Source of the DNA: a virus
Length of the DNA stretch: 29,066 nt
Strand: one strand, 5' to 3'
IMG/VR virus record: IMGVR_UViG_3300028008_000078
Coordinates: 1 to 29,066 of that record
Shown piece by piece: positions 267 through 24,861 of the stretch; positions within the stretch are counted from its first letter, which is position 1, and each line of letters starts with the position of its first letter. The notes beneath the pieces were generated by a model. It worked only from the letters and a program-made list of their open reading frames with translations. It searched no databases and was not told the origin of the DNA. The translations under genes and the position numbers were made by a program.

Positions 267-355
267 TATTGTCAATACTTTACATATTAGCATGTTTTGC
301 ATTACCAGTATATATGTTGTATAAAATGAATAAGGAGAAACCAGATGATCGTTAA
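263..355 (+). CDS. 30-residue single-pass membrane microprotein
   Basis: The ORF starts at ATG 263, overlapping the upstream stop as ATGA, and ends with TAA at 353-355 inside the next gene. It encodes 30 residues: a hydrophobic N-terminal stretch of about 20 (ILSILYILACFALPVYML) and a charged tail (YKMNKEKPDDR). This looks like a single transmembrane helix with a short basic/acidic cytoplasmic tail. The overlaps on both sides fit phage gene packing. The ribosome binding site of the downstream gene (AAGGAG at 331-336) lies within it. Function unknown. The alternative is a non-coding spacer that happens to be open. Confidence 0.55.
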   Translation: MILSILYILACFALPVYMLYKMNKEKPDDR

Positions 356-929
356 TACTGATATTGACATTGATGTAGCAAATAGAGACAAGCTACTTAA
401 AATTATTAATGGAATACCAGCAATGATTGCACGTGATAACAAACAAGTTAAGCACAACACTGGCGTATACTTTCATGACATTCCTAGCAACCCGTTTACA
501 GGCATGGCTACAATTGATCATAAAGAAGCCGAAAGCATGGGTTACTTTAAGATTGATATACTTAATGTTGGCTTATATAAAAAGATAGAATCTAAAAAAC
601 AATTAGATGATTTACTAGCAATGAAACCAATGTGGGAGTTGTTAGAACATAAAGAAGTAGTAGAGCAATGTTTTCATATTCATAAACACTTTGCTATTGT
701 TGGACAAATGAAACCAAAAAGTGTTGAACAAATGGCGGCTGTTTTGGCTATCATTAGACCAGCCAAAAGATATTTAATTGGTAAAGATTGGAATACCATT
801 AATTCGGAAGTATGGGTTAAGCCTACAAATGGCGAATATTATTTCAAAAAAGCACATGCCCATGCGTATGCAATGGCTATTGTATTACAATTAAATATGC
901 TTGCTACTGGTTTTTCTTTACAAGATTAA
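345..929 (+). CDS. Miniature DnaE-like (C-family) DNA polymerase palm/fingers protein
   Basis: The protein is 194 residues; the start at 345 is set by AAGGAG at 331-336. Several blocks match bacterial DNA polymerase III alpha in the right order. DIDIDVANRD (residues 6-15) resembles the DnaE catalytic PDFDVDF region (E. coli D401/D403). KHNTGV (36-41) resembles the KHAGGV segment. MGYFKIDIL (65-73) resembles LVKFDFLGL, with D71 at the position of D555. MAAVLAIIRPAK (130-141) resembles the ALVALFRPGP fingers motif. YFKKAHAHAYAMA (166-178) resembles GFNKSHSAAYAL. DnaE is about 1,160 residues; here the PHP domain, most of the thumb and all of the C-terminal half are absent. All three catalytic aspartates appear conserved by eye. 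Whether it polymerises DNA is unknown. T4-like phages normally replicate with a B-family gp43, which is outside this window. Family assignment is fairly sure; activity is inference. Confidence 0.75.
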   Translation: MIVNTDIDIDVANRDKLLKIINGIPAMIARDNKQVKHNTGVYFHDIPSNPFTGMATIDHKEAESMGYFKIDILNVGLYKKIESKKQLDDLLAMKPMWELLEHKEVVEQCFHIHKHFAIVGQMKPKSVEQMAAVLAIIRPAKRYLIGKDWNTINSEVWVKPTNGEYYFKKAHAHAYAMAIVLQLNMLATGFSLQD

Positions 930-2181: not shown

Positions 2182-3195
2182 ATGGCTTTAATGAATACAT
2201 ACGTGAGAACTCTGGTTCCGGTTAACTGGCGGTCTAGTCCTAGTGGCTGGATTAGTGGTAACTGTCCGATGTGTGTACGCAATGGACAAGCAAGACCAGA
2301 TAAGAAAGGCAGAGGCGGTTTCTTATTTGATGATGATAAGTTTCAATATAATTGTTTTAATTGTAATTATAAAACAGGCTGGAGTCCACAAAGCAAAATT
2401 ACTGTAAGATTAAAAAATCTACTAGTTACACTTGGTGCTGATGAAAGCGATATACAACGTATACAGTTAGAATTATTACGTGAACAAGATGTAGAAACGT
2501 TATTAATAAAAACAGAAAAACGTAAAAATTTAGTTATTGATTGGGATGAGAAAAAACTCCCAGATGACGCAAAACCTTTTATGGACTTTACAGAGCCAGA
2601 TGCAGATTGGACAGAAGCAGTAGCATACTTAACAGATCGTGGATTTGATGTAACTGATTCTAGATTTATGTGGAGCCCAAGTAAACAACATGGAAGAGTA
2701 AACAAAAGATTTATATTACCATTTACATATAAAGGTAAGGTAGTTGGCTATACAGCAAGATGGGCAGGAAATACTATTCCTAACGGAATGCCTAAATATT
2801 ATAATCAACAACCAAAGAAAGACTTTGTATATGGATTAGATAAACAAACTAGTGATAAGCAATTTGTTATTGTAACTGAAGGGCAACTTGATGCTATAGT
2901 TACAGACGGGTGTGCAATTGGTAGTAATAATATAAATGATGAACAAGCAGATATACTACATAGTTTAGAAAAACAAATTATAGTATTACCTGATGCAGAC
3001 GAAGCTGGTAAACTAATGTGTAAATCAGCTATAAAGAACGGTTGGATGGTAGCATTTCCCGAGTGGAATGACTGTAAAGATGCAAGTGATGCCTTGACAA
3101 AATACGGAAGATTGTATACAATAACAAGTATAATAGATAGTGCTGAAAAGAATCCAACTAAAATTGAACTATTAATGAGAAAGTATTGTAAATGA
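2182..3195 (+). CDS. 61: DNA primase, T4 gp61-like
   Basis: The protein is 337 residues, close to T4 gp61 (342). Primase makes the RNA primers for lagging-strand synthesis and works with the hexameric helicase encoded next door. An N-terminal zinc finger is visible (C28-x2-C31 and C58-x2-C61). A Toprim catalytic core follows, with VTEGQLDA (E233 as the metal/acid-base glutamate) and LPDADEAG (D271 and D273 binding Mg2+). The stop overlaps the helicase ATG as ATGA at 3192-3195, giving translational coupling. The start at 2182 has no ribosome binding site; the ATG four codons downstream (2191) is an alternative start. Function is certain at the family level. Confidence 0.95.
   Translation: MALMNTYVRTLVPVNWRSSPSGWISGNCPMCVRNGQARPDKKGRGGFLFDDDKFQYNCFNCNYKTGWSPQSKITVRLKNLLVTLGADESDIQRIQLELLREQDVETLLIKTEKRKNLVIDWDEKKLPDDAKPFMDFTEPDADWTEAVAYLTDRGFDVTDSRFMWSPSKQHGRVNKRFILPFTYKGKVVGYTARWAGNTIPNGMPKYYNQQPKKDFVYGLDKQTSDKQFVIVTEGQLDAIVTDGCAIGSNNINDEQADILHSLEKQIIVLPDADEAGKLMCKSAIKNGWMVAFPEWNDCKDASDALTKYGRLYTITSIIDSAEKNPTKIELLMRKYCK
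3094..3122 (+). promoter_or_regulatory. Possible internal early promoter before helicase
   Basis: TTGACA at 3094-3099, 17 bp spacer, TACAAT at 3117-3122, inside the primase gene and 70 bp before the helicase start. The match to sigma70 is good, but it lies in coding sequence and could be chance. Confidence 0.3.
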
Positions 3196-4595
3196 CAGAA
3201 CAAGCAAAAGAATATAATATAGATCTACAACGATTATTTGTAGAATTTTTAGCACAAGATAAAGATCTGTTTGCTAGAATAAATGGCATTTTAGATCCTG
3301 AATACTTTGATAGAGAATTACGCAAGGGTGTAGAATTTATAAAAGAACATGCAGTAGGATATAGTGCATTACCTACACGTGAACAAATCTTAGCAACAAC
3401 TGGGCTTGAATTACAAGAATTAAAAGATGTCGATGATAGACATAAAAAATGGTTTATAGATGAGTTTGAAGTATTCTGTAGACACAAAGCATTAGAATCG
3501 GCAATTTTAAAAAGTGCAGATTTATTAGAAAAAGGTGATTACGGGCCAGTAGAACGTATGGTAAAAGAAGCAGTACAAGTTGGACTTGCTAAACATATGG
3601 GAACAGACTATTGGGAATCACCAGCAGAACGTATTGAACGTGTTCGTAATCAACGAGGCGGTACAAGTACAGGCTGGGCAGAAGTTGATAAGAAACTATA
3701 TGGTGGATTTAATAGAGGTGAATTGAATATATTTGCTGCACCATCTGGTGGTGGTAAAAGTTTATTCTTACAAAACTTAGGATTAAATTGGGCACTAGCA
3801 GGATTAAACGTTGTATACGTTAGTTTAGAACTTAGTGAAGAATTATGTAGTATGCGATTAGATAGTATGTTAACAGGCATGAATACACGTGATGTATTTA
3901 AAAATGCAGATGATGTAGATTTAAAAGTACGTATGCAAGGTAAAAATGCAGGTAAACTACAAATTGTACAATTACCTAACGGTATTACAATTAATGCTAT
4001 TACTAGCTATTTGCGTGAATATGAAGTTAAGAATGATATTAAAATTGATGCAATTTGTATTGATTATTTAGACTTAATGATGCCAGCACAAAGTAAAGTT
4101 AATCCAAGTGATTTGTTTATTAAAGATAAGTTTGTATCTGAAGAATTACGTAATTTTGCAGTAGAGCATGATATACTATTTGCAACAGCATCTCAGTTAA
4201 ACAGAGCGGCAGTAGAAGAAGTAGAGTTTGATCACTCTCATATTGCTGGTGGTTTAAGTAAGATTCAGACAGCTGATAATGTAATTGGTATCTTTACAAG
4301 TCAAGCTATGCGTGAACGTGGACGTTATCAAATTCAGTTTATGAAAACACGTAGTAGTAGTGGTGTAGGGCAAAAAGTAGACTTAAAGTTTGATATTGCA
4401 GGATTACGTATTGAAGACTTGGATGAAGATGACGCAGGATCTACAATGAACCAACCTAGTGCTATGTTTGAGAAGATTAAAGCACAAAACAAAACAACAC
4501 ACCAAGAAAAGAATATTGCTGAAAATAGTGTGGTAGAAAACACTATAACAGGGCATGATAAACTTCGCAGTATGCTCAAAAGAAGTAATAGTTAG
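3192..4595 (+). CDS. 41: Replicative DNA helicase, T4 gp41-like (DnaB family)
   Basis: The protein is 467 residues (T4 gp41 is 475). It is a hexameric 5'-3' helicase of the DnaB/RecA-like family that unwinds the fork and forms the primosome with gp61. The N-terminal domain (about 1-140) is helical. The RecA-like core begins around 155 with TGWAEVDKKLYGGFNRGEL, followed by the Walker A loop APSGGGKS (183-190). Walker B is in IDAICIDYLDLM (around 285-297). ATASQLNRAAVEEV (about 330) matches the Q/R loop typical of DnaB. The C-terminal 50 residues are polar and probably disordered (the DnaB-type acidic/helper-interaction tail). It is coupled to primase by ATGA. The clean overlap and full length indicate an intact gene. 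Confidence 0.95.
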   Translation: MTEQAKEYNIDLQRLFVEFLAQDKDLFARINGILDPEYFDRELRKGVEFIKEHAVGYSALPTREQILATTGLELQELKDVDDRHKKWFIDEFEVFCRHKALESAILKSADLLEKGDYGPVERMVKEAVQVGLAKHMGTDYWESPAERIERVRNQRGGTSTGWAEVDKKLYGGFNRGELNIFAAPSGGGKSLFLQNLGLNWALAGLNVVYVSLELSEELCSMRLDSMLTGMNTRDVFKNADDVDLKVRMQGKNAGKLQIVQLPNGITINAITSYLREYEVKNDIKIDAICIDYLDLMMPAQSKVNPSDLFIKDKFVSEELRNFAVEHDILFATASQLNRAAVEEVEFDHSHIAGGLSKIQTADNVIGIFTSQAMRERGRYQIQFMKTRSSSGVGQKVDLKFDIAGLRIEDLDEDDAGSTMNQPSAMFEKIKAQNKTTHQEKNIAENSVVENTITGHDKLRSMLKRSNS

Positions 4596-4602
4596 ATAAA
4601 TA
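4595..4602 (+). promoter_or_regulatory. T4-type late promoter
   Basis: GATAAATA followed by CTAC, overlapping the last base of the helicase stop codon. It precedes the ATG at 4634, which has its own ribosome binding site (ACGGAGAAC), and probably drives the block 4634-7480. Confidence 0.65.
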
Positions 4603-4633
4603 CTACAAAGTAAACTTATTACGGAGAACAAAC

Positions 4634-4882
4634 ATGAAAAAACGTACTCGAAGTCTATTAGAAGAAATTAACTCGCTTGCTCCTCGCAAGGACAAGACCA
4701 GTATTCTGGAGAGCAAAGGTAATAATGCGATAAGTAGTATTATTAACATTCTTGAGATGATTGACTCTAACTATGACGAAGAGACTGCACAAGATCTTAC
4801 TAAACGTATTATGTTAAGTATTAAAAATAGAGATGCAGAGCGTTTTAATCGTGGAGTTAAGAAAATTAGAGGCCCTAGATGA
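4634..4882 (+). CDS. Small conserved phage protein, unknown
   Basis: An 82-residue, basic, probably all-helical protein: MKKRTRSLLEEINSL at the N-terminus, a helical middle (SSIINILEMIDSNYDEETAQ) and a basic C-terminus (RGVKKIRGPR). No membrane segment or known motif. It is first in a unit behind a late promoter, with CGGAG as ribosome binding site, and overlaps the next gene by 4 bp (ATGA). Co-transcription with the ligase-like DUF6267 gene suggests a shared late role, perhaps in the virion. Function not known. Confidence 0.7.
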   Translation: MKKRTRSLLEEINSLAPRKDKTSILESKGNNAISSIINILEMIDSNYDEETAQDLTKRIMLSIKNRDAERFNRGVKKIRGPR

Positions 4883-6072
4883 AAATAACAGATATTGTAG
4901 GAAGCAAAAAACGTAAACCTAGAAATTCCAGATTACATAGATTAATTGGAAAGGATTTGTTTCAACCTGAAGCTAAAAAACTAAGTGAAGATGCACGTAT
5001 ACAGCACTTAGAAGATTTAATTCTATGGGATGCGTCAACAGGTGCAAGAAAAGCAATTGCTACACTACATCAAGTAGAACAACAACCAAACACAGTTACT
5101 ATTAAATGGGATGGGTCTCCAGCAGTTATATTTGGTCGTAATGAAAAAGGTGAGTTTATATTAACAGATAAAAGTGGATTTACTGCTAAAGGTTATGATG
5201 GTAAACCAACTAGTGCTGAAGGCTTAGAAAAAATGTTATTTAATCGTCCTGGCGCAAGTAATGCTGATGCTACTAAAGCAGCAAACTATAAAGCATTTGC
5301 AGGTAAAATGAGAAGCATCTGGGATAAAGTAGAAGCAACAGTACCGAGTGATTTTAGAGGTTATGTAATGGGCGATTTACTATGGTTTACAACACCAGAT
5401 GTAAAAGAAAACAAATACACATTCACTCCTAATACAACAACATATCAAGTTAAAATAGATAGCGAAGTTGGAAAGAAAATAGCAAGCAGTGATGTAGGTG
5501 TTGTAGTACACATGTCAATTGGACTTGACGGTGAAAAGAGTAAAGTTGATATGTCACAATTCCAAGGTGGACCAACATACATAATGCCACCTGTAATGGT
5601 ACAAAAATCACCAGGTGTAGATATTCCAGCAGTTGACGACTTAGAAAATTATTTAGATAAAAATGCACAAGCAATAGATAAATTGTTTGCAGTACCAGCA
5701 GAATTAAAAATGGCAGACTTTGGTAAGATACTTTATGCTTATATTAATAATAGTGTAAAAACAGGTAACTTAGATAATCTAGGAAGTACATTTCAAGAAT
5801 ATGTTGAAGGAAGTAAATTATCAAAACCAAAACAAGCACGTCTTATGGAATACATAAATAGTAACATAGATGGGTTTAATGCAACTTTTAATTTTATTAA
5901 AGGAATTAAAAAAGTTAAAAATACAGTCATCCAAACCTTAGACGCACAAGACGCAGATGTAGAAGCATATACAAATGGACAACGTGGCGGAGAAGGTTAT
6001 GTAGTTGACAAAGATGTTAAACTTGTTAATAGAGCAGGCTTTACGGCTGCGAACATGGCAAGGAATAATTAA
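4879..6072 (+). CDS. DUF6267-type protein with nucleotidyltransferase (ligase-like) motifs
   Basis: The 397-residue protein resembles a family (DUF6267 as I recall it) conserved in T4-like marine phages. IKWDGSPAVIFGR (residues 75-87) has the K-x-D-G signature of covalent nucleotidyltransferases (ATP-dependent DNA/RNA ligases), with K76 as candidate AMP-accepting lysine; T4 Rnl1 has a similar KEDGS. FRGYVMGDLLWF (159-170) could be motif III. GEGYVVDKDVKLVNR near the C-terminus (371-385) looks like motifs IV and V pressed together, with E372 and K381. A helical N-terminal region carries HLEDLILWDASTGARKA. Ligase or capping-like activity has not been shown as far as I know; this is inference from the motifs. 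It is in a late-promoter block, so a packaging, repair or virion-associated role is possible. Confidence 0.7.
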   Translation: MKITDIVGSKKRKPRNSRLHRLIGKDLFQPEAKKLSEDARIQHLEDLILWDASTGARKAIATLHQVEQQPNTVTIKWDGSPAVIFGRNEKGEFILTDKSGFTAKGYDGKPTSAEGLEKMLFNRPGASNADATKAANYKAFAGKMRSIWDKVEATVPSDFRGYVMGDLLWFTTPDVKENKYTFTPNTTTYQVKIDSEVGKKIASSDVGVVVHMSIGLDGEKSKVDMSQFQGGPTYIMPPVMVQKSPGVDIPAVDDLENYLDKNAQAIDKLFAVPAELKMADFGKILYAYINNSVKTGNLDNLGSTFQEYVEGSKLSKPKQARLMEYINSNIDGFNATFNFIKGIKKVKNTVIQTLDAQDADVEAYTNGQRGGEGYVVDKDVKLVNRAGFTAANMARNN

Positions 6073-6270
6073 ATGTACAGTAAAGAATGTAAACTACATT
6101 TACAAAATGCAAACATGACACGTTGGCAACATTTTAAACATGCAATAAGTATTGCATGGAGTTTAAAAAAAGCATCAATGGCAGTATTTGTACATGCCTT
6201 TGCTCCACGTTATTTTAAAACTTATGCAAGTGAAACGTGTGAATTAATAGCAATGGAGAAAAAACAATGA
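6073..6270 (+). CDS. DUF6356-like small protein
   Basis: A 65-residue protein whose ATG directly follows the upstream stop codon. AIAWSLKKASMAVFVHAFAP-type content (a hydrophobic helix ending in VHAFAPRYFKTYAS) resembles DUF6356, a short family in bacteria and marine phages whose C-terminal half reads HAF-P--F-T-AS. One membrane-associated helix (about residues 30-50) is likely. It overlaps the next gene by 4 bp (ATGA) and is part of the late block. Function unknown; family assignment is from memory. Confidence 0.7.
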   Translation: MYSKECKLHLQNANMTRWQHFKHAISIAWSLKKASMAVFVHAFAPRYFKTYASETCELIAMEKKQ

Positions 6271-7022
6271 CTAAGAAATATACATTGCAACAATATGCGG
6301 CTATGGAAGGTGGACATACAATGAATGATACTACTGAACAATATTCATTTTTAAACACATTAGGCGAAGCCCGTATGTTTAAATCAAAACACCAAATTAG
6401 CAAAGAAGGTGCTAGAACTGTTACAGATCATTTTTTCGTAAGTATGTTAAGTTTATATGCTATGTCAAATGATTACAAGTACGCACCAGTTGCAAAAAAT
6501 TATGCAAAAAATACAAACAGATTTGGAAATTATAATAGACCAAGTCCAAGTGGAACAGATATGTATCAGTCATTACATACAATTTTAAAACCAGAAGGAT
6601 TAATAAATTCAGAAGCTGATAAATTACTTTTAAATAAAGTAAATCTTGATCAGCGTAAAATTAGAATGTTTATGAAGCAAATTGAAACTGGTAAAGTTAA
6701 CCCAGGACAAGCACAAGCGTTTTTCTATAAATTAGAAAAGGATCTAGCAATACAAGATCCTAAACTAAGAGCGGCAAGACGTTTAGTAGGTGATTGGACT
6801 AATTTAACAACTAATCAGCAACAACTAGCGGCAACACAAATTAATAAACATTTTAGACTAAATGCTAGACGCAGCGACTTGTTTCCTATCTTTTCCAAAT
6901 ATTCATCAGAATCAGGATTAGAAATTAATGACAAAGAAAAGCAAGGTATAGGGAAACGTATTGCACGTGGTGCAGCAGCGTTTGCAGCAGGTTATACTGC
7001 TGGTAAACTTACAGGCATGTAA
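6267..7022 (+). CDS. Hypothetical phage protein with C-terminal Gly/Ala helix
   Basis: A 251-residue, basic, mostly helical protein. The N-terminus is polar, and RGYxxAM-like repeats are absent. The C-terminal 20 residues (RGAAAFAAGYTAGKLTG) form a short amphipathic or membrane-inserting Gly/Ala helix. No enzymatic motif is visible. It starts at an ATGA overlap with the DUF6356-like gene and is followed two bases later by the next gene, so the three are one translational unit. A late, virion-associated role is possible but not shown. Confidence 0.7.
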   Translation: MTKKYTLQQYAAMEGGHTMNDTTEQYSFLNTLGEARMFKSKHQISKEGARTVTDHFFVSMLSLYAMSNDYKYAPVAKNYAKNTNRFGNYNRPSPSGTDMYQSLHTILKPEGLINSEADKLLLNKVNLDQRKIRMFMKQIETGKVNPGQAQAFFYKLEKDLAIQDPKLRAARRLVGDWTNLTTNQQQLAATQINKHFRLNARRSDLFPIFSKYSSESGLEINDKEKQGIGKRIARGAAAFAAGYTAGKLTGM

Positions 7023-13232: not shown

Positions 13233-15557
13233 ATGAGCAAAGATCAAATAGAAATTATAAAAAGAGATGGTACTACCGAGGTACTTGATTTAGAAAAAAT
13301 GCACAAGGTTGTATTTTATGCATGCGAAGGTATTACTGGCGTTAGTGCTAGTGAAGTAGAAATTAAAAGTCATTTGCAGTTTTATGATGGAATTGAAAGT
13401 ACAAATATTCAAGAAACATTAATTAAAGCCGCAGCTGATCTTATTAACGAACAAACACCAAACTACCAATGGGTAGCAGGTAGATTAATTAATTACCATT
13501 TAAGAAAAAATGTATATAATTCATTTGATCCAGAACATTTAAGTGTTATTGCACATAGAAACGTTGAGCTTGGTGTATACGATGAAAGTTTTTTTTCCGT
13601 TTATACAGAAGATGAAATTGATCAATTAAACAATTACATTAAACATGATCGTGATGAAAATATTTCTTACGTTGGAATGGAACAGTTCCGTGGTAAGTAT
13701 CTTGCTCAAAATAGAGTAACAGGACAGATATTTGAAACTCCGCAAATTGCGTACATGATGATCTCAGCTACATTGTTTAGTAACTATCCAACAGAAACTA
13801 GAATGAAGTATGTAAAAGAATATTACGATGCTATTAGTAATTTTGATATTAGTTTACCTACACCTATTATGGCAGGACTTAGAACACCTCAAAGGCAATT
13901 TTCTAGTTGCGTTCTTATAGAAACAGATGATAGTCTTGACAGCATTAATGCTACAGCTGCCAGCGTTGTTAAATATGTTTCACAAAAAGCAGGAATTGGA
14001 ATTGGTGCAGGTAGTATTCGTTCAATAGGAAGTCCTATTAGACGAGGCGATGCAACACATACAGGTGTTATTCCATTTTATAAATTATTTCAAAGTGCAG
14101 TTAAATCATGTTCACAAGGTGGTGTTCGTGGTGGAGCGGCAACACTGTATTATCCTATTTGGCATTTAGAAGCAGAAGAATTACTTGTATTAAAAAATAA
14201 CAAAGGTACAGAAGACAATCGTGTAAGACATATGGACTATGGAGTTCAGTTTAATAAACTAATGTATGAGCGTTTGTTAACTGGTGGAGATATTACTTTA
14301 TTCTCACCTAGTGATGTTCCAGGTCTATATGAGGCCTTTTTTAACGATCAAGACAAGTTTAAAGAATTATATGAAGAAGCAGAACGTACAGTAACTAGAA
14401 AGAAAGTTATGCCAGCGGCAGAACTATTTGGACAGTTTATGGAAGAACGTAAAAACACAGGACGTATCTACTTAATGAATGTAGATCATGCAAATACACA
14501 TGGAGCATTTTTAGAAGATATTGCACCAGTAAAACAAAGTAACTTATGTTGTGAAATCAACTTACCTACTAAGCCTCTTTCTTCGTTTAGCGATAATGAA
14601 GGTGAAATTAGTTTGTGTACATTAAGTGCAATCAATTGGGGTAATGTTAGATCACCAGATGACTTTGAACGTATAGGTAGATTAGCAGTACGTGGTTTAG
14701 ACGAGTTATTAGATTATCAAAATTATCCAGTATTAGCGGCAGAACTTAGTACAATGAAAAGACGTCCATTAGGTATTGGCATTATTAACTTTGCATTTTG
14801 GCTAGCTAAGAATGATTTAAATTATCAAGATATTGATAAAAAAGGTTTAGCCTTAATTGATACATGGGCAGAAGCATGGAGTTATTACTTAATTAAAGCA
14901 AGTGCAGATTTAGCAATTGAAAAAGGTAATATTTCAGGTGTTAACGAAACAAAGTATGGACAAGGCATTACACCAAATATGACATACAAAAAAGAATTAG
15001 ATGAATTAATTCCACATAAAGAACGTATGCCTTGGAAAAGTCTACGTAAGCAATTACAAAAGACCGGAATACGTAACAGTACACTAATGGCACTTATGCC
15101 TGCTGAAACATCAGCACAAATTAGTAACAGCACAAACGGTATTGAACCACCACGTGCATTTGTTAGTGTTAAGCAAAGTAAACATGGAGTACTAAAGCAA
15201 GTGGTTCCTGGTTATCCACGCTTAAAGAACAAATATGACCTACTATGGAGCCAACGTAGTCCAGAAGGTTACTTAAAAATTATGGCAGTATTACAAAAGT
15301 ATATTGATCAAGGCATTAGTGTTAATACAAGCTATAACCCAGAATTTTATGAAGAAGAAAAGATACCAATGAGTGTTATGCTACAACATCTTGTAATGTT
15401 TTACAAGTATGGTGGCAAACAATTATACTATTTTAACACATATGATGGTCAAGGTGAAATTGACTTTGATAAGAAGAATGCTGAGCAGATGCTTGGTAGA
15501 GATGAATTTAACACGGACGAAGAGTATGATGACTACTGCGAAAGTTGTGTGATATAA
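13233..15557 (+). CDS. nrdA: Ribonucleoside-diphosphate reductase alpha subunit, class Ia
   Basis: A 774-residue protein (T4 NrdA is 754), reducing ribonucleoside diphosphates to dNDPs with NrdB. The N-terminal 90 residues form an ATP-cone-like regulatory domain (IIKRDGTTEVLDLEKMHKV). SSCVLIETDDSLDSI (about 224-238) holds the first active-site Cys. SNLCCEINLPT (about 430-440) holds the thiyl-radical Cys and catalytic Glu. GEISLCTLSAINW has the second redox Cys. MPAETSAQISNSTNG follows. The C-terminal CESCVI contains the C-x-x-C pair that relays electrons from thioredoxin/glutaredoxin. The next genes encode NrdB and glutaredoxin, forming a complete supply unit. The start at 13233 follows ACGGAATAC. 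Confidence 0.97.
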   Translation: MSKDQIEIIKRDGTTEVLDLEKMHKVVFYACEGITGVSASEVEIKSHLQFYDGIESTNIQETLIKAAADLINEQTPNYQWVAGRLINYHLRKNVYNSFDPEHLSVIAHRNVELGVYDESFFSVYTEDEIDQLNNYIKHDRDENISYVGMEQFRGKYLAQNRVTGQIFETPQIAYMMISATLFSNYPTETRMKYVKEYYDAISNFDISLPTPIMAGLRTPQRQFSSCVLIETDDSLDSINATAASVVKYVSQKAGIGIGAGSIRSIGSPIRRGDATHTGVIPFYKLFQSAVKSCSQGGVRGGAATLYYPIWHLEAEELLVLKNNKGTEDNRVRHMDYGVQFNKLMYERLLTGGDITLFSPSDVPGLYEAFFNDQDKFKELYEEAERTVTRKKVMPAAELFGQFMEERKNTGRIYLMNVDHANTHGAFLEDIAPVKQSNLCCEINLPTKPLSSFSDNEGEISLCTLSAINWGNVRSPDDFERIGRLAVRGLDELLDYQNYPVLAAELSTMKRRPLGIGIINFAFWLAKNDLNYQDIDKKGLALIDTWAEAWSYYLIKASADLAIEKGNISGVNETKYGQGITPNMTYKKELDELIPHKERMPWKSLRKQLQKTGIRNSTLMALMPAETSAQISNSTNGIEPPRAFVSVKQSKHGVLKQVVPGYPRLKNKYDLLWSQRSPEGYLKIMAVLQKYIDQGISVNTSYNPEFYEEEKIPMSVMLQHLVMFYKYGGKQLYYFNTYDGQGEIDFDKKNAEQMLGRDEFNTDEEYDDYCESCVI

Positions 15558-15568
15558 GGATTAACAAC

Positions 15569-16696
15569 ATGTCAATATTAAACGTAAATAACGAAAAATA
15601 CCATACTGAAGCAAACGCATTTCTAGACGGAGATCTTGGGTTTCAGCGATACGATACTGTTAAGTATAAACAGTTCGATAAACTTACAGATAAGCAGTTA
15701 GGTTTCTTTTGGAGACCTGAAGAAGTTGATGTAAGTAAAGACTCAAAAGATTTTAAAGACTTAACTGACCATGAACAGCATATTTTTACAAGTAATCTTA
15801 AAAGACAAATTCTTTTAGATAGTGTACAAGGTAGAGCACCAGTTGAAGCATTTGGTCCTATTACTAGTTTACCAGAACTTGAAAACTGGATTATCACATG
15901 GACATTCAGCGAAACAATTCATTCACGTAGCTATACACATATTATTCGTAATATCTATAATAATCCTACAATAGTATTTGATGAACTAGCAGATAGTAAA
16001 GAAATTGTAGAATGTGCAGATGACATTTCTAAATATTATAATGACCTTATTGAGTATTCACAGTACTATCAATTGTTAGGTGAAGGAACACACAAAGTTA
16101 ATGACAAAACAATTGAAATTAGTTTGTATGATCTAAAGAAGAAAATTTGGATGTGTGCAAATAGTGTTAACGTATTAGAAGGCATTCGTTTCTATGTTAG
16201 TTTTGCTTGCTCTTGGGCATTCGCAGAACTTAAGAAAATGGAAGGTAATGCTAAAATTATTAAATTTATTGCACGTGATGAAAATGTTCACTTAGCAAGT
16301 ACACAATATTTACTTTCAAAAGTATTAACAAAAGAAGATCCAGACTTCCTAAAAATTGCAGAAGAATGTAAAGAAGAAGTTTCACAAATGTTTGTTGATG
16401 CAGTTGAGCAAGAAAAAGAATGGGCTAACTATCTATTTAAAGACGGTAGTATGATTGGTCTTAATGCACAACTATTACACGATTACATTGAATGGATTTG
16501 TTGTAAACGTATGACAGCATTAGGAATGAAATGTCCATATACAACACCACAAGCAAACCCACTACCATGGACAGCTAAATGGATTAGTGGAGCAGAAGTA
16601 CAAGTAGCACCACAGGAAACAGAAATTAGTAGTTATGTTATTGGCGGTGTTAAAAAAGACGTATCAGAAGATACATTTTCAGGAATGAGCTTATAA
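15569..16696 (+). CDS. nrdB: Ribonucleoside-diphosphate reductase beta subunit, class Ia
   Basis: I chose ATG 15569 (375 residues) over the in-frame TTG at 15545, since TAAGGA at 15554-15559 is correctly spaced and the TTG lies in nrdA's end. With this start the residue numbers match E. coli NrdB exactly: diiron ligands D84 (LLDSVQGR), E115 and H118 (SETIHSRSYTH), E204 (EGIRFYV), E238 and H241 (RDENVHLAS), and the radical tyrosine Y122. The tyrosyl radical-diiron cofactor therefore appears intact, so this is an iron-dependent class Ia enzyme. The C-terminal tail binds NrdA. The stop overlaps the glutaredoxin ATG (TAATG). Confidence 0.97.
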   Translation: MSILNVNNEKYHTEANAFLDGDLGFQRYDTVKYKQFDKLTDKQLGFFWRPEEVDVSKDSKDFKDLTDHEQHIFTSNLKRQILLDSVQGRAPVEAFGPITSLPELENWIITWTFSETIHSRSYTHIIRNIYNNPTIVFDELADSKEIVECADDISKYYNDLIEYSQYYQLLGEGTHKVNDKTIEISLYDLKKKIWMCANSVNVLEGIRFYVSFACSWAFAELKKMEGNAKIIKFIARDENVHLASTQYLLSKVLTKEDPDFLKIAEECKEEVSQMFVDAVEQEKEWANYLFKDGSMIGLNAQLLHDYIEWICCKRMTALGMKCPYTTPQANPLPWTAKWISGAEVQVAPQETEISSYVIGGVKKDVSEDTFSGMSL

Positions 16697-16947
16697 TGAT
16701 AACAATTTACGGCAAAACAGCATGTCCTTATTGCGTAAGAGCTAAAGCACTATGCGAGTCACGTGGATTTGCTTACGAATACAAGCAACTAGACGAAGAC
16801 TTTACAAGAGAAGATGTTATGGAAACCTTTCCAGGTGCCAGAACATTTCCACAAATAATCATATCCGGTAATAAAATTGGTGGGTATGATCAAATGATTA
16901 AGTACATTGAAGATACAAACTACAATGGAACTGGTCATTCACTATAA
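16696..16947 (+). CDS. nrdC: Glutaredoxin (RNR electron donor)
   Basis: An 83-residue thioredoxin-fold protein with the dithiol active site C10-P-Y-C13, the cis-proline segment TFPQIIISG (about 51-59), and GGYDQM, the glutathione-binding end. It is translationally coupled to nrdB by TAATG, so its role is most likely to re-reduce NrdA, as T4 NrdC does. The CPYC motif is glutaredoxin-type rather than thioredoxin-type (CGPC). The gene is complete and of the usual length. The symbol follows T4 usage; grxC-like is also possible. Confidence 0.92.
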   Translation: MITIYGKTACPYCVRAKALCESRGFAYEYKQLDEDFTREDVMETFPGARTFPQIIISGNKIGGYDQMIKYIEDTNYNGTGHSL

Positions 16948-17533: not shown

Positions 17534-19087
17534 ATGGCAAACGATTTTGTAGATGGCTTAAAAGACGCAAGTGATTATATCAATAGAACAACTGTTGACA
17601 TTCCTACTGGTGCTGATATAGACCTAAATTCTGGTACTGTAACAGCTCAAACACAAGCGTACAGCTTGAAAGAAATCATTTGTAGCCTACTAGCCGGAAA
17701 CGGCATAAAACTCCCAAATTTGCAAATATGCTTAAAAATTAACATAGGTAGATTAATACCTGAGATACCTGCAGGCTTGGAAGATTTAAGAGATGCATTA
17801 CAAGAAGCAGAAAATGCATTAGACGAATTTATAGCACACACTAACATTGATAATGCACTAGGAAGATTAAACGCAGCCATAGCAGAATTTGCGGCTATTG
17901 CTAATATGATTAACTTCTGTGGTACACCAGTTGTTCCACGTGCTATTCCAAATGTATTAAAAGATGCAATGGGAAGTTTTACAGGTGCTGGTAAAGATAT
18001 ACTTGATACATTAGGTCAAATTGCAGATGGCGATATTGGTGGATGTATTGGCACTGATGGTAAATTTAATCCAAACTTATTTACAGGTGGACTATTACAA
18101 AAACTAGGAGGACAACTTAACAACCTAGCAAATTTACCAGATGCAGTCAAAAATAATATTATAAATGATTTGAATGCATTTAAAAATGATATTGGAAACT
18201 TAATTGAATTTGAAAACAATTTTGCAGGTACAGAATCAGGCGGACAAGGTGGTAGTTTATTTGCACCTCAAGAAAGAACTAATACAGGTGTTGGTGTTGC
18301 AATAGATACAGATAACATGACACTTGCAAAAAGTCAACAGTATGCAAGTAACTTACAATCAGTTTATAATAGCTTAAAAGGTTATGATGTTGATAGTGAT
18401 GGGAACAATATATTCCATTATCTATTAGAACCTGAAATGATTAATAGGTTAGAAAATGATGGTGACCCAACAGTACCATTATCTGAAAGAGAACCAATAT
18501 ACGATCATTGTAATAGAGTTATAGGTTACACTGAACGTAATACACAAACAGTACAAGAAGCCAGTTCTGGAAGTCCTAGAATTGCACAATCACAACCAGG
18601 TATGTCCGGATTAGCAGAAACTGGAACAAAAGTTACAGCTTCACCTGCATCTACTACAAATTTAAATGCGGAAACACCAACAAGTAGTGATTCTTCGGGA
18701 ACAGGTGCAACTGGACCAACTGGACCAACCGGTGCAACAGGTGCAACAGGTGCAACAGGACCAGCCGGTGCTAACGGAGTAGATGGACAAAATGGTACAA
18801 ATGGAGTAAATGGACAAGATGGTGCTCAAGGACCACAAGGACCAACTGGTGCTCAAGGACCACAAGGACCAACTGGTGCAACAGGTGCAACAGGACCAGC
18901 GGGTGCAACAGGACCAGCAGGAACACCAGGAACACCTGCTATTGCAGAAAATGGTACTACATCACAAAGACCTAGTAGTCCAGTACCTGGGCAATTCTTT
19001 TTTAATACAGATACGGCTATGTTTGAAGGGTGGAATGGAACAACATGGGTACAGTTAGTACCATCACAATTCCAACAAACCCCATAA
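17534..19087 (+). CDS. Virion fibre-like protein with collagen-like Gly-X-Y region
   Basis: A 517-residue protein. Residues about 1-245 are helical, with a Cys in each of [19 protein letters not shown] and GGCIGT. About 245-385 are polar and probably linker-like. About 391-468 hold 26 uninterrupted Gly-X-Y triplets (18704-18937), expected to form a collagen-type triple helix. The end ([20 protein letters not shown] then [12 protein letters not shown]) is a short beta motif common at the tips of phage fibres. It directly follows the PAAR gene, suggesting a baseplate/tail location; host adhesion is a reasonable inference. No late promoter lies immediately before it. Confidence 0.85.
18704..18937 (+). 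repeat. Collagen-like coding repeat with 27-bp tandem duplication
   Basis: The stretch encodes 26 Gly-X-Y triplets (mainly GAT, GPA, GPT, GPQ, with GVD, GQN, GTN in the middle). Within it, the 27 bp at 18821-18847 (encoding GAQGPQGPT) are repeated exactly at 18848-18874, a recent-looking tandem duplication. Confidence 0.85.
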
Positions 19088-19715: not shown

Positions 19716-19791
<76 letters not shown>

Positions 19792-19800
19792 GATACTTAG

Positions 19801-19885
19801 GCCCTTGTGGTGGAATTGGTAGACACGCAGGTCTTAGGAACCTGTGTCGCAAGACGTGAGAGTTCGAGTCTCTCCGAGGGCACCA
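19801..19885 (+). tRNA. tRNA-Leu(TAG)
   Basis: An 85-nt class II tRNA with a long variable arm and CCA encoded. Acceptor GCCCTTG pairs with CGAGGGC (one G-T). Anticodon stem CAGGT/ACCTG with loop CTTAGGA, anticodon TAG, reading CUA. T loop TTCGAGT. Confidence 0.96.
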
Positions 19886-19924
19886 ATAGAAGGAGAAACG
19901 GCAATTGGACTGCCGGGCTGAAAC

Positions 19925-19993
19925 ATGCTATATATTAGGACACACAAAGAGAAGAAGAACAAAAAGAGAAAGTACGAAAGGATTTTAAAATGA
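19925..19993 (+). CDS. Possible 22-residue basic microprotein
   Basis: ATG 19925 to TGA 19991-19993 encodes MLYIRTHKEKKNKKRKYERI plus two residues, about half Lys/Arg. The stop overlaps the next gene's ATG as ATGA, the same arrangement used elsewhere here, which is the main support. No clear ribosome binding site. It may instead be an untranslated spacer downstream of tRNA-Leu; a 5-bp hairpin (CGGCA ... TGCCG, 19899-19915) precedes it. Confidence 0.3.
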   Translation: MLYIRTHKEKKNKKRKYERILK

Positions 19994-20193
19994 AACAACA
20001 TCTACTAGAAGCATTAAAAGCTCACGCAGAAGGACAGATTGCAAAACATAAAGCTAATGTCCATGTGTATTTAAATCAGTCAGTAGGTATAGGTGAACAT
20101 CCAGATATTATTGATGCAATTGAAGAACAATTGGGTTTAATTGCAAAATATGATGATCATCTTGAAGTATTGAATAAATACTTTGAAGAGTAA
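19990..20193 (+). CDS. Conserved small phage protein, unknown
   Basis: A 67-residue helical protein. HLLEALKAHAEGQIAKHKAN, then VGIGEHPDIIDAIEEQL, then HLEVLNKYF. I recall similar small proteins in marine T4-like phages, all of unknown function. AAAGGATT lies upstream as ribosome binding site. It lies between tRNA-Leu and tRNA-Ala and is probably cotranscribed with the tRNAs. Confidence 0.75.
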   Translation: MKQHLLEALKAHAEGQIAKHKANVHVYLNQSVGIGEHPDIIDAIEEQLGLIAKYDDHLEVLNKYFEE

Positions 20194-20201
20194 AATTTAA
20201 T

Positions 20202-20277
20202 GGGGGTATAGCTCAGTTGGGAGAGCGATTGCTTTGCAAGCAATAGGTCATCGGTTCGATCCCGGTTACCTCCACCA
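20202..20277 (+). tRNA. tRNA-Ala(TGC)
   Basis: A 76-nt tRNA with CCA encoded. Acceptor GGGGGTA pairs with TACCTCC (one G-T). Anticodon stem ATTGC/GCAAT with loop TTTGCAA, anticodon TGC, reading GCA. T loop TTCGATC. The tRNA acceptor end is 13 bp before the next gene's ATG. Confidence 0.96.
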
Positions 20278-20290
20278 AATAGGACAATTA

Positions 20291-21175
20291 ATGAAATTAG
20301 CAATATATCAAAATAATTTAGGAAGTGCATCAGGAATACATTGGTGGCTTTCACAAGAAATGAATATTGGGCCAGAAGTATACTCGTTTACAGATGGGTA
20401 TCTTCGACCTCAACATAATCACATCGGCGGCATAGTTATTGAAGATGGAAACCATCCGTTACATAAACAGTTTAATGATTCTTTTGAAGAACTAGATAAA
20501 ACTGAATATGGAACTGTTGACCCATTTGCAAAACTTGAAGATGTTATAAAAGACTTTGATACAGCTATTTGGAGTAACTATAGTGGAAACTTAGCTAACC
20601 CAGATAATATTATTAAAGCAGATAAAACAATCTTAGTTGACAATACAATAGAAGAACAGCTATTTTTCTATATTACAAACTATGCGTTTGCATGGATTGA
20701 AACAGCAGATGATGTTACTGAGCAATCAGAATCATGGGCTAATGAACATAGTCATATTGAAGGTTGGAAAGAAGAATGGTTTGGAAAGTATCATAAAGAG
20801 TATCTTAAAGCATGGGAAGATGGTAAGCTAAAGTATATGTGGCAATTAAATTTTGCACATCACGATTTAGCAGACAATCTAAACAAGTATGATAACAATG
20901 TTATCTTAGGAGAACCAGAAGATCATGAAAGACTATTTTTACAAAAACGTCAGGAACTGACAGACGCATATTCGCAGGATACGCAATTCTCGTATGCAAA
21001 TAATGAAGTAGATCATATAGTAGTAGATGACAATTGGTATACAAGTCCTACTGTTATTACAGATTATCTAGGCATAATGAGTTCGTTTAGATTGAAGAAG
21101 TTTTTACTTGATTATGTAAAAATGTATAAACGTAAAAAAGGTTTGTACAACACACAATTTATAAAATATTTATAG
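20291..21175 (+). CDS. Hypothetical protein, possible transferase-like
   Basis: The in-frame extension upstream lies inside tRNA-Ala, so I use ATG 20291 (294 residues). It begins MKLAIYQNNLGSASGIHWWL, has an acidic, Trp-rich helical centre (about 120-200), and ends DDNWYTSPTVITDYLGI followed by a Lys-rich helix. The C-terminal order (strand with acidic residues, then helix with D-x-LG-I) recalls the last part of sulfotransferase-like proteins, but no clear nucleotide-binding loop is seen, so this is weak. Neighbours are tRNA-Ala and iscU. Confidence 0.7.
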   Translation: MKLAIYQNNLGSASGIHWWLSQEMNIGPEVYSFTDGYLRPQHNHIGGIVIEDGNHPLHKQFNDSFEELDKTEYGTVDPFAKLEDVIKDFDTAIWSNYSGNLANPDNIIKADKTILVDNTIEEQLFFYITNYAFAWIETADDVTEQSESWANEHSHIEGWKEEWFGKYHKEYLKAWEDGKLKYMWQLNFAHHDLADNLNKYDNNVILGEPEDHERLFLQKRQELTDAYSQDTQFSYANNEVDHIVVDDNWYTSPTVITDYLGIMSSFRLKKFLLDYVKMYKRKKGLYNTQFIKYL

Positions 21176-21187
21176 GAGAATAGGCTT

Positions 21188-21601
21188 ATGGCATATTCGG
21201 CAAAAGTGTTAGACCATTATAATAACCCACGAAATGTAGGTAAAATGGATGCTAATGCTACAAACGTAGGAACAGGTATGGTAGGAGCTCCTGCTTGTGG
21301 TGACGTAATGAGGTTACAAATTAAAGTAACAGAAGATGGTATTATAGAAGATGCAAAGTTTAAAACATATGGATGCGGCAGTGCAATTGCTAGCTCAAGT
21401 ATGGTGACAACTATGCTAAAAGGTATGAATTTAATACAAGCTAGTGAAATTAAAAATACAACAATAGTTGAAGAATTAGCATTACCTCCAGTTAAGATTC
21501 ACTGTAGTGTATTAGCTGAAGACGCAATTAAAGCTGCGGTTAGAGATTATCAAGGTAAAAACCCTGATGATGTTGATGGCAACTATTATGAATTAAAATA
21601 G
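21188..21601 (+). CDS. iscU: Fe-S cluster assembly scaffold IscU
   Basis: A 137-residue protein with AGGAG before ATG 21188. All functional residues of IscU are present at E. coli numbering: C37 and D39 (APACGDV), C63 (YGCGSA), H105 and C106 (KIHCSVL). The LPPVK motif (99-103), recognised by the HscA chaperone, is intact. IscU receives sulfur from a cysteine desulfurase and builds [2Fe-2S]/[4Fe-4S] clusters for transfer to apo-proteins. No iscS, hscA or hscB lies in the window, so it would use host partners. It is unusual cargo for a phage; probably an auxiliary metabolic gene. Confidence 0.93.
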   Translation: MAYSAKVLDHYNNPRNVGKMDANATNVGTGMVGAPACGDVMRLQIKVTEDGIIEDAKFKTYGCGSAIASSSMVTTMLKGMNLIQASEIKNTTIVEELALPPVKIHCSVLAEDAIKAAVRDYQGKNPDDVDGNYYELK

Positions 21602-21610
21602 CATAGATAT

Positions 21611-21626
21611 ATTAAATACATAAATA
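21611..21626 (+). promoter_or_regulatory. Tandem late promoter cores before nuclease
   Basis: ATTAAATA (21611-21618) followed at once by CATAAATA (21619-21626). The second matches the late core better. A TAGGAG ribosome binding site follows, then ATG 21645. Confidence 0.55.
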
Positions 21627-21644
21627 ACTGTATAGGAGAATATT

Positions 21645-22079
21645 ATGAAAAAACTAATAACAATATTATTTTGTGCGGTTATAGCATTTCCATCTTTTGC
21701 AAAAGATATTGTAATGGAAGTATATGACTTTGAAATCACAAGAGTTATTGATGGAGACACGGTTGCATTTAGAGCAGACTTTCTGCCAGCACCACTTAAA
21801 CAGGAATTAAGTATTCGTGTTTATGGAGTTGATACACCTGAAAAAGGTTGGAGAGCTGAATGTGAAAGAGAAGCCGCATGGGGTGAAAAAGCCTCACAAT
21901 TTACTAAAGATAAACTTAACGCATCTACAACGCTACAAGTAGCAATTGCTAAATGGGATAAGTTTGGTGGCAGAGTGTTAGGTGATATTATTATTGATGG
22001 TAAAAGTTTAAGACACATGCTTCTTGATAATGGATTTGCTAGAGAATATTACGGCGATAAAAAAGAATCTTGGTGTTGA
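21645..22079 (+). CDS. Exported staphylococcal-type (thermonuclease) nuclease
   Basis: A 144-residue protein. A signal peptide is visible: K2K3, a hydrophobic core (LITILFCAVIAF) and a cleavage site after A19 (SFA-K). The mature SNase domain has RVIDGDTV (D36/D38 binding Ca2+), SIRVYGVDTPEKGW (R58, D63, E66, matching R35, D40 and E43 of staphylococcal nuclease) and DKFGGRVLGD (R110, matching R87). It should cut DNA and RNA in the periplasm or outside the cell. It is preceded by late promoter cores. Its stop codon overlaps the promoter of the following tRNA cluster. Confidence 0.9.
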   Translation: MKKLITILFCAVIAFPSFAKDIVMEVYDFEITRVIDGDTVAFRADFLPAPLKQELSIRVYGVDTPEKGWRAECEREAAWGEKASQFTKDKLNASTTLQVAIAKWDKFGGRVLGDIIIDGKSLRHMLLDNGFAREYYGDKKESWC

Positions 22080-22104
22080 CAAATACTTAAAGACAACTTA
22101 TAAT
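22076..22104 (+). promoter_or_regulatory. Perfect sigma70 promoter for the tRNA cluster
   Basis: TTGACA at 22076-22081, 17 bp spacer, TATAAT at 22099-22104: consensus at both boxes. The -35 overlaps the nuclease stop codon. The start site would be about 22111, just before tRNA-Asp. Confidence 0.8.
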
Positions 22105-22116
22105 ACTAACTAATAA

Positions 22117-22193
<77 letters not shown>

Positions 22194-22196
22194 TAT

Positions 22197-22271
22197 GGTC
22201 CCTTCGTCTATCGGTTAGGACGCCAGGTTTTCATCCTGGAAAGAGGAGTTCGATTCTCCTAGGGACTACCA
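22197..22271 (+). tRNA. tRNA-Glu(TTC)
   Basis: A 75-nt tRNA with CCA encoded. Acceptor GGTCCCT pairs with AGGGACT. Anticodon stem CCAGG/CCTGG with loop TTTTCAT, anticodon TTC, reading GAA. It starts 4 bp after tRNA-Asp. Confidence 0.96.
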
Positions 22272-22283
22272 CTTACAACAAGT

Positions 22284-22360
22284 GGCTCTGTAGCTCAGTT
22301 GGTTAGAGCATCCGACTCATATTCGGAAGGTCAGTAGTTCGAATCTACTCAGAGCTACCA
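22284..22360 (+). tRNA. tRNA with CAT anticodon (Met, or Ile2 if lysidine-modified)
   Basis: A 77-nt tRNA with CCA encoded. Acceptor GGCTCTG pairs with CAGAGCT. Anticodon stem TCCGA/TCGGA with loop CTCATAT, anticodon CAT. It lacks the three G-C pairs of an initiator tRNA, so it is elongator Met or the AUA-reading Ile2; sequence by eye does not separate them. Confidence 0.93.
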
Positions 22361-24078: not shown

Positions 24079-24861
24079 ATGGCAGCACACAAAGAAACAG
24101 TTTTATCAGTAACACATTACACAGACACATTATTTCATATCACAACTACTCGAGACAGTAGTGTACGATTTAGAGATGGTGAATTTATGATGATTGGATT
24201 AGACAACTGGTCAGAAAAACTACAAAAGAATAAACCTATAATGAGAGCTTATTCATTAGCAAGTCCCAACCATCAAGAAACACTAGAATTTTATAGTATC
24301 AAAGTACAAGACGGTCCACTTACAAGTAGATTACAACATGTTAAGGTTGGTGATGAAATATTAATTAATCCTAAAGCAGTAGGCACACTAGTACACGCAA
24401 ATTTAAAACCAGGACGCAATTTGTACCTACTAGCTACTGGAACAGGAATCGCCCCCTTTATGAGCATTATACGCGGCGTAGAGACGTATGAACATTACAG
24501 TAGGGTAATTGTAGTATGGGGCACTAGAATAGAAAAAGAACTAGCCTTTAAAGATCTTATTGAAAGCCTAAACACTGATGAAATATATCGTGAAGTAACT
24601 GAAGGAAAACTTAGAACATATTTCACATGTACACGTGAGCCTTATGAAAATGAAGGCAGAGTAACAACAGCAATGTATGAAGGTAAAGTACAAGACAAAT
24701 TATGTTTGCCACCAATTGATGCAGAACATGATAGAGTTATGATATGTGGGTCAATGCCAATGAATTTAGAATTAAAAGAATATTTAGAAGCTGAAGGTTT
24801 CACTGAAGGTGATAGTAAAACACCAGGGGAGTTTGTGTTAGAAAGAGCCTTTGTAGGATGA
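24079..24861 (+). CDS. fpr: Ferredoxin/flavodoxin-NADP reductase, Fpr type
   Basis: A 260-residue protein, the usual length of bacterial Fpr (about 250-260). It moves electrons between NADPH and ferredoxin or flavodoxin. FAD domain: RAYSLAS (56-62) is the R-x-Y-S flavin motif, and GPLTSRLQ (79-86) follows. NADP domain: TGTGIAPFMSIIRG (120-133) and VVWGTR, then MICGSMPMN (221-229). The C-terminus GEFVLERAFVG matches the Fpr subclass, where the last residues stack on the flavin. It overlaps the next gene by 4 bp. A phage copy is unusual; with ferredoxin it could support RNR, Fe-S repair or host oxidative balance. Confidence 0.93.
   Translation: MAAHKETVLSVTHYTDTLFHITTTRDSSVRFRDGEFMMIGLDNWSEKLQKNKPIMRAYSLASPNHQETLEFYSIKVQDGPLTSRLQHVKVGDEILINPKAVGTLVHANLKPGRNLYLLATGTGIAPFMSIIRGVETYEHYSRVIVVWGTRIEKELAFKDLIESLNTDEIYREVTEGKLRTYFTCTREPYENEGRVTTAMYEGKVQDKLCLPPIDAEHDRVMICGSMPMNLELKEYLEAEGFTEGDSKTPGEFVLERAFVG

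Follow-up and report, generated by a model that had tools for sequence, protein, structure and literature searches.

In 2021, Iyer, Anantharaman, Krishnan, Burroughs and Aravind described a phage-specific Pol III alpha, both minimal and split, in the group 2.2 jumbo phages (PMC7824862). From genome comparisons, these authors distinguished an N-terminal NTP-binding protein and a C-terminal Mg- and template-binding protein, encoded beside PolB and perhaps serving one strand or repair, and they viewed the minimal enzyme as a model of the ancestral one (PMC7824862). Related proteins have been recorded elsewhere. A truncated 172-aa alpha was noted in the CBB genome paper (PMC5259590), gp316 of Atu_ph07 was annotated as an alpha subunit (PMC6102473), and PF07733 was found in 51.9% of one cluster in a survey of marine jumbo phages (PMC9123017). 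No biochemical study of split Pol III alpha was found in the open-licence literature. Across the C family, D401, D403 and D555 (E. coli DnaE numbering) are absolutely conserved, whereas D405 is DnaE-specific and is Asn in PolC (PMC3919608). H760 of E. coli DnaE is the presumed steric gate (PMC8485763). The PHP domain is universal in cellular C-family members (PMC12926913), and E. coli Pol III is weakened by PHP-domain mutations alone (PMC3666897).

The window analyzed here is a 29-kb IMG/VR record (29,066 nucleotides), a fragment. Compared with the group of Iyer et al., its phage is an uncultured marine one, known only from this fragment. The ORF at 345–929 (+) is ATG-initiated and encodes a 194-aa relative of DnaE, hereafter B. 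A ribosome-binding-like AAGGAG, read directly, lies at 332–337 (+), just 5′ of the ATG. We propose that this ORF probably specifies one subunit, B, of a minimal C-family polymerase of the DnaE type made of two proteins, a putative accessory enzyme. B is the same stand-alone C-terminal unit as in the split Pol III alpha of Iyer et al., and it belongs to phrog_11778. Since that split was already described in 2021, what the window contributes is a marine representative of a kind already known, and the statement in an earlier note on this DNA that such a polymerase would be far below any known DnaE needs correcting.

In B, the C-terminal half of a minimal, split DnaE palm is joined to a reduced fingers region, and the conserved blocks of the protein are collinear with E. 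coli DnaE (1160 aa). The metal-binding motif DIDID (residues 6–10; 360–374, +) corresponds to D401, D403 and D405. It is followed by HNTG, in which H37 to G40 align with H511 to G514, and by K69-I-D71 (549–557, +), equivalent to K553-F-D555. The fingers motif R138-P139-A-K141 (756–767, +), within the block IRPAK, matches R639-P640-G-P642. The last block, FKKAHAHAYA, aligns with DnaE residues 757–765; its FKKAHAHAY (residues 167–175; 843–869, +) matches NKSHSAAY, with H171 in the place of H760. The earlier note had read five DnaE blocks in this order, and the alignment, the PHROG matches and more than 590 IMG/VR loci put that reading beyond chance. Its equation of D6, D8 and D71 with D401, D403 and D555 was confirmed by alignment with E. 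coli DnaE.

Conservation of these positions is strict. D6, D8, D10, H37, G40, K69, D71, R138, P139, K141 and H171 are invariant in 120–122 distinct sequences, so that D6, D8 and D71 never vary among the relatives, as the proposed conservation check had asked. The KID motif is unchanged in 122/122 distinct sequences, and D10, the DnaE-type counterpart of D405 that is Asn in PolC, in 121/121. B thus resembles E. coli DnaE in that the counterparts of D401, D403, D405, K553, D555, R639-P640 and H760 are all invariant.

Linking B to Pol III alpha required profiles and fold comparison. With B as a single sequence, a search of Pfam and PDB returned no relative. Matches to solved DnaE by sequence alone were weak (E 0.07–1.5), and hhalign likewise gave B weak alignments to a single E. 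coli DnaE (probability 5%) and to the second part of a split Pol III alpha from Tenacibaculum phage Larrie. Against PHROGs, B matched phrog_11778 (1.4e-64), which is labeled "DNA polymerase", and also phrog_405 (0.0011), the family of full-length Pol III alpha. An AlphaFold model of B, built on a 67-sequence alignment, reached a pLDDT of 90.6. Its best 12 Foldseek matches in the PDB were all Pol III alpha chains, with probabilities of 0.63–1.00 and moderate TM values of 0.36–0.50, and the top match was the ternary complex 3e0d (probability 1.00). The fold comparison that had been suggested as a check therefore came out in favor of DnaE.

B lacks the PHP, thumb and C-terminal domains, a loss already recognized in the earlier note. 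Two further losses had gone unremarked there, that of the palm half with GRGS and that of the segment of the fingers running from RPGP to NKSHS; RRAMGKK, which lies in that segment, was found in 0/122 B sequences. No PHP match was obtained in any of 17 related genomes. Because PHP is absent from both B and these genomes, we file B as a divergent phage relative and not as an ordinary DnaE.

B is under strong purifying selection, with a dN/dS of about 0.05 (range about 0.04–0.08 against eight relatives), a figure that applies to B only. One alternative is that B is the remnant of a decayed full-length DnaE gene, which would suit a protein much shorter than cellular DnaE. This is practically untenable given such a dN/dS, the similar length and borders of B across more than 100 distinct sequences, and its occurrence in every isolate genome of the group. 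The "relic" and "decoy" readings that had been offered earlier are disfavored by the strictly conserved active site and by the strength of purifying selection. It is likewise distinctly unlikely that B, derived from DnaE, scaffolds or regulates the phage replisome without any catalysis of its own, or is a decoy for the host clamp loader or alpha subunit. Such a role would fit a protein without the OB, clamp-binding and tau-binding parts, a lack that rules out a normal replicase, in phages that have their own PolB. A decoy, however, would need the very clamp- or tau-binding parts that are absent and would not need invariant catalytic residues, and the strong selection on B weighs against the scaffold as well.

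The half of the palm missing from B was located in a second protein. A profile search with phrog_405 in related genomes gave two small ORFs per genome, one covering profile positions 360–436 (A) and the other 579–807 (B). A is a protein of ~170 aa ending in ...GVGRGSSVASYCLYLLGIHRIDSIKYELDIKEFLK, and its gene is distant from B in the relatives. It matches PF07733 in 25/25 members, and the PF07733 protein of the marine jumbo phage cluster (PMC9123017) may be A. A aligns with E. coli DnaE as far as N393 (E 2.6e-8; E 5e-4 in a second comparison). GRGS, residues 361–364 of E. coli DnaE, is found in A and is invariant there in 98/98 distinct sequences. The AlphaFold model of A has a pLDDT of 90.8, and its first structural match is Pol III alpha. 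In several genomes, the A gene has a GroES-like gene and the clamp loader in its vicinity.

The joint between the two proteins is sharply defined. A stops at DnaE residue 393 (...FERFLN in DnaE), and B picks up at about 396–398 (PDFDVDF). The motif end ...EFLK/R is the exact C-terminus of 102/107 A proteins, and the next conserved DnaE motif after it, D401-F-D403, is the N-terminus of B, which means that A and B meet at the same point of the palm. No fused A+B ORF occurred among the loci examined, and no single locus held both. Alignment shows A and B to correspond to two halves of one active site, encoded by two genes. All three metal-binding aspartates are in B, as are the palm lysine, the RP motif and the O-helix histidine, and A has the palm half that comes before them, with GRGS. 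The earlier note had called B a polymerase core with all three catalytic aspartates. The aspartates are indeed present, but the core is not complete, since the nucleotide-binding palm half with GRGS is missing from B and is supplied by another protein in all the isolate genomes examined. GRGS and a complete palm in one chain are not a property of B.

The main reading of the earlier note was a mini-polymerase for which B suffices by itself. B does hold the O-helix histidine and each of the three aspartates, and AlphaFold folds it confidently without a partner. B is nevertheless devoid of the GRGS palm half, which is invariant in A and supplied in trans in every isolate genome, so that we regard self-sufficiency as highly improbable.

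The two proteins travel together. B occurs in the isolate phages Atu_ph07, Phosso, PA5oct, Vibrio 2.275.O, SCTP-2, Slicko01, XacN1, RaK2, GAP32 and 121Q. Each of the isolate genomes examined (10/10) holds one A, one B and a family B replicase, and none of them has a PHP domain. A and B were found together in 17/20 records, the three exceptions being linear 184–222-kb contigs, and PolB was present in 19/20. Over 17 genomes, the distance matrices of A and B are correlated (r 0.78, Mantel p 0.0005), a correlation expected from shared descent alone and hence not evidence of binding. A DnaQ-like exonuclease was considered as an obligate partner and rejected, with a PF00929 match in only 7/20 records. 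A was sought in the 29-kb window and was not found. The 204.8-kb contig G001 is collinear with the window, 90–92% identical to it, and has A, B and PolB. This close relative makes a strong case that the phage of the window also carries A.

IMG/VR contains at least 592 loci for B and at least 599 for A. The idea of B as a bacterial gene was tested and rejected. Only 10/84,980 species genomes matched, all of them metagenome bins with phage neighbors on the contigs concerned. With its occurrence in bacterial and archaeal genome sets confined to these 10 bins, B looks phage-specific. Many annotations of these widespread proteins say "hypothetical" or plain "DNA polymerase", and they could be mistaken for the phage replicase.

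We infer that A and B bind each other and would thereby rebuild one Pol-beta-like active site. A would grip the phosphates of the incoming nucleotide, and B would provide both metals, the fingers on the template side and the check on the sugar. Iyer et al. read the two proteins in the same way. More cautiously, the pair may assist at the phage replication fork as an accessory polymerase of low processivity and would not be the main replicase. This role is suggested by the absence of thumb, PHP, beta-binding and tau-binding parts and by the presence of a family B replicase alongside the pair. Its tasks might be gap filling, primer extension, lesion bypass or repair synthesis. The probable main replicase of these phages is of the T4 gp43 family B type. 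The palm fold of T4 gp43 is unrelated, and it has no homology to A or B.

Compared with E. coli DnaE, A and B are without PHP, thumb, mid-fingers, HhH, OB, clamp-binding and tau-binding parts, and the protein is split at ~393/398. With the mid-fingers (including RRAMGKK) and the thumb missing, productive DNA binding and polymerization by A and B are not assured. The weakening of E. coli Pol III by mutations in PHP alone (PMC3666897) also counts against activity. Instead of a templated DNA polymerase, the pair could be a conserved nucleotidyltransferase from the Pol-beta-like superfamily, such as a terminal, RNA or nucleotide-modifying transferase. In favor of this, every active-site residue is kept, but the thumb is gone and so is much of the fingers, the parts that hold template and primer. 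We consider this unlikely. The RP motif and the O-helix histidine, traits of DnaE fingers and of dNTP sugar selection, are invariant, and B is located in a primase–helicase cluster.

In that cluster, a convergent 123-aa gene of phrog_11637, function unassigned, lies at 904–1275 (−), and the 3′ ends of this gene and B share 26 nt. It is followed by conserved neighbors encoding a virion structural protein type of phrog_14467 (1339–2172, +), found at the same place in isolates, a Toprim DNA primase (2182–3195, +) and a DnaB/T4 gp41-like replicative helicase (3192–4595, +). The order B, phrog_11637, structural-type protein, primase and helicase is kept in most isolates examined. The phrog_11637 gene, also a conserved neighbor, adjoins 155/167 B genes with room for it and all 10 metagenome-bin loci. 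Its product is a possible functional partner of B, and this conserved convergent neighbor offers a concrete candidate for a third component. We tentatively entertain, at well below even chances, that the pair is an active C-family polymerase of ~360 residues, made of two chains and without a thumb, which works as a dedicated second polymerase alongside PolB, possibly with the phrog_11637 product as a third subunit replacing the missing DNA-gripping parts. If active, the pair would undercut every cellular C-family polymerase in size by a wide margin and would reveal how small a part of Pol III suffices for catalysis.

A break at the same joint is found in Tenacibaculum phage Larrie (Cbastvirus), where a full-length Pol III alpha has its palm cut at the same place (FERFLN / PDIDSDF). 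Unlike A and B, the two Larrie genes are adjacent, comprise 516 and 677 codons including the stop, and keep PHP, full fingers and HhH. This case suggests that a break at the joint can be tolerated, in keeping with reassembly in trans. The first Larrie half (within 3146–6726) bears a tail of ~53 residues past the joint without a Pfam match, and neither half of the Larrie Pol III alpha gave an intein match.

Other genes of the window were also recorded. A ribonucleotide reductase large chain (Pfam), a probable small-chain gene and a glutaredoxin stand in a row at 13233–16947 (+), with the small-chain gene at 15545–16696 judged by eye. The product of 17534–19087 (+) has a collagen-like Gly-X-Y stretch (PF01391) near its C-terminus and is probably virion-associated. 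Six tRNA genes (Thr, Leu, Ala, Asp, Glu and Met) form two clusters within 19716–22360 (+), and an ORF at 20157–20354 (−), which overlaps tRNA-Ala, is probably spurious. The window further encodes a phage NifU_N/IscU-like iron–sulfur scaffold protein at 21188–21601 (+; PF01592, E 9e-51) and, at 24079–24861 (+), a phage oxidoreductase with an NAD-binding domain (PF00175) that resembles ferredoxin-NADP reductase.
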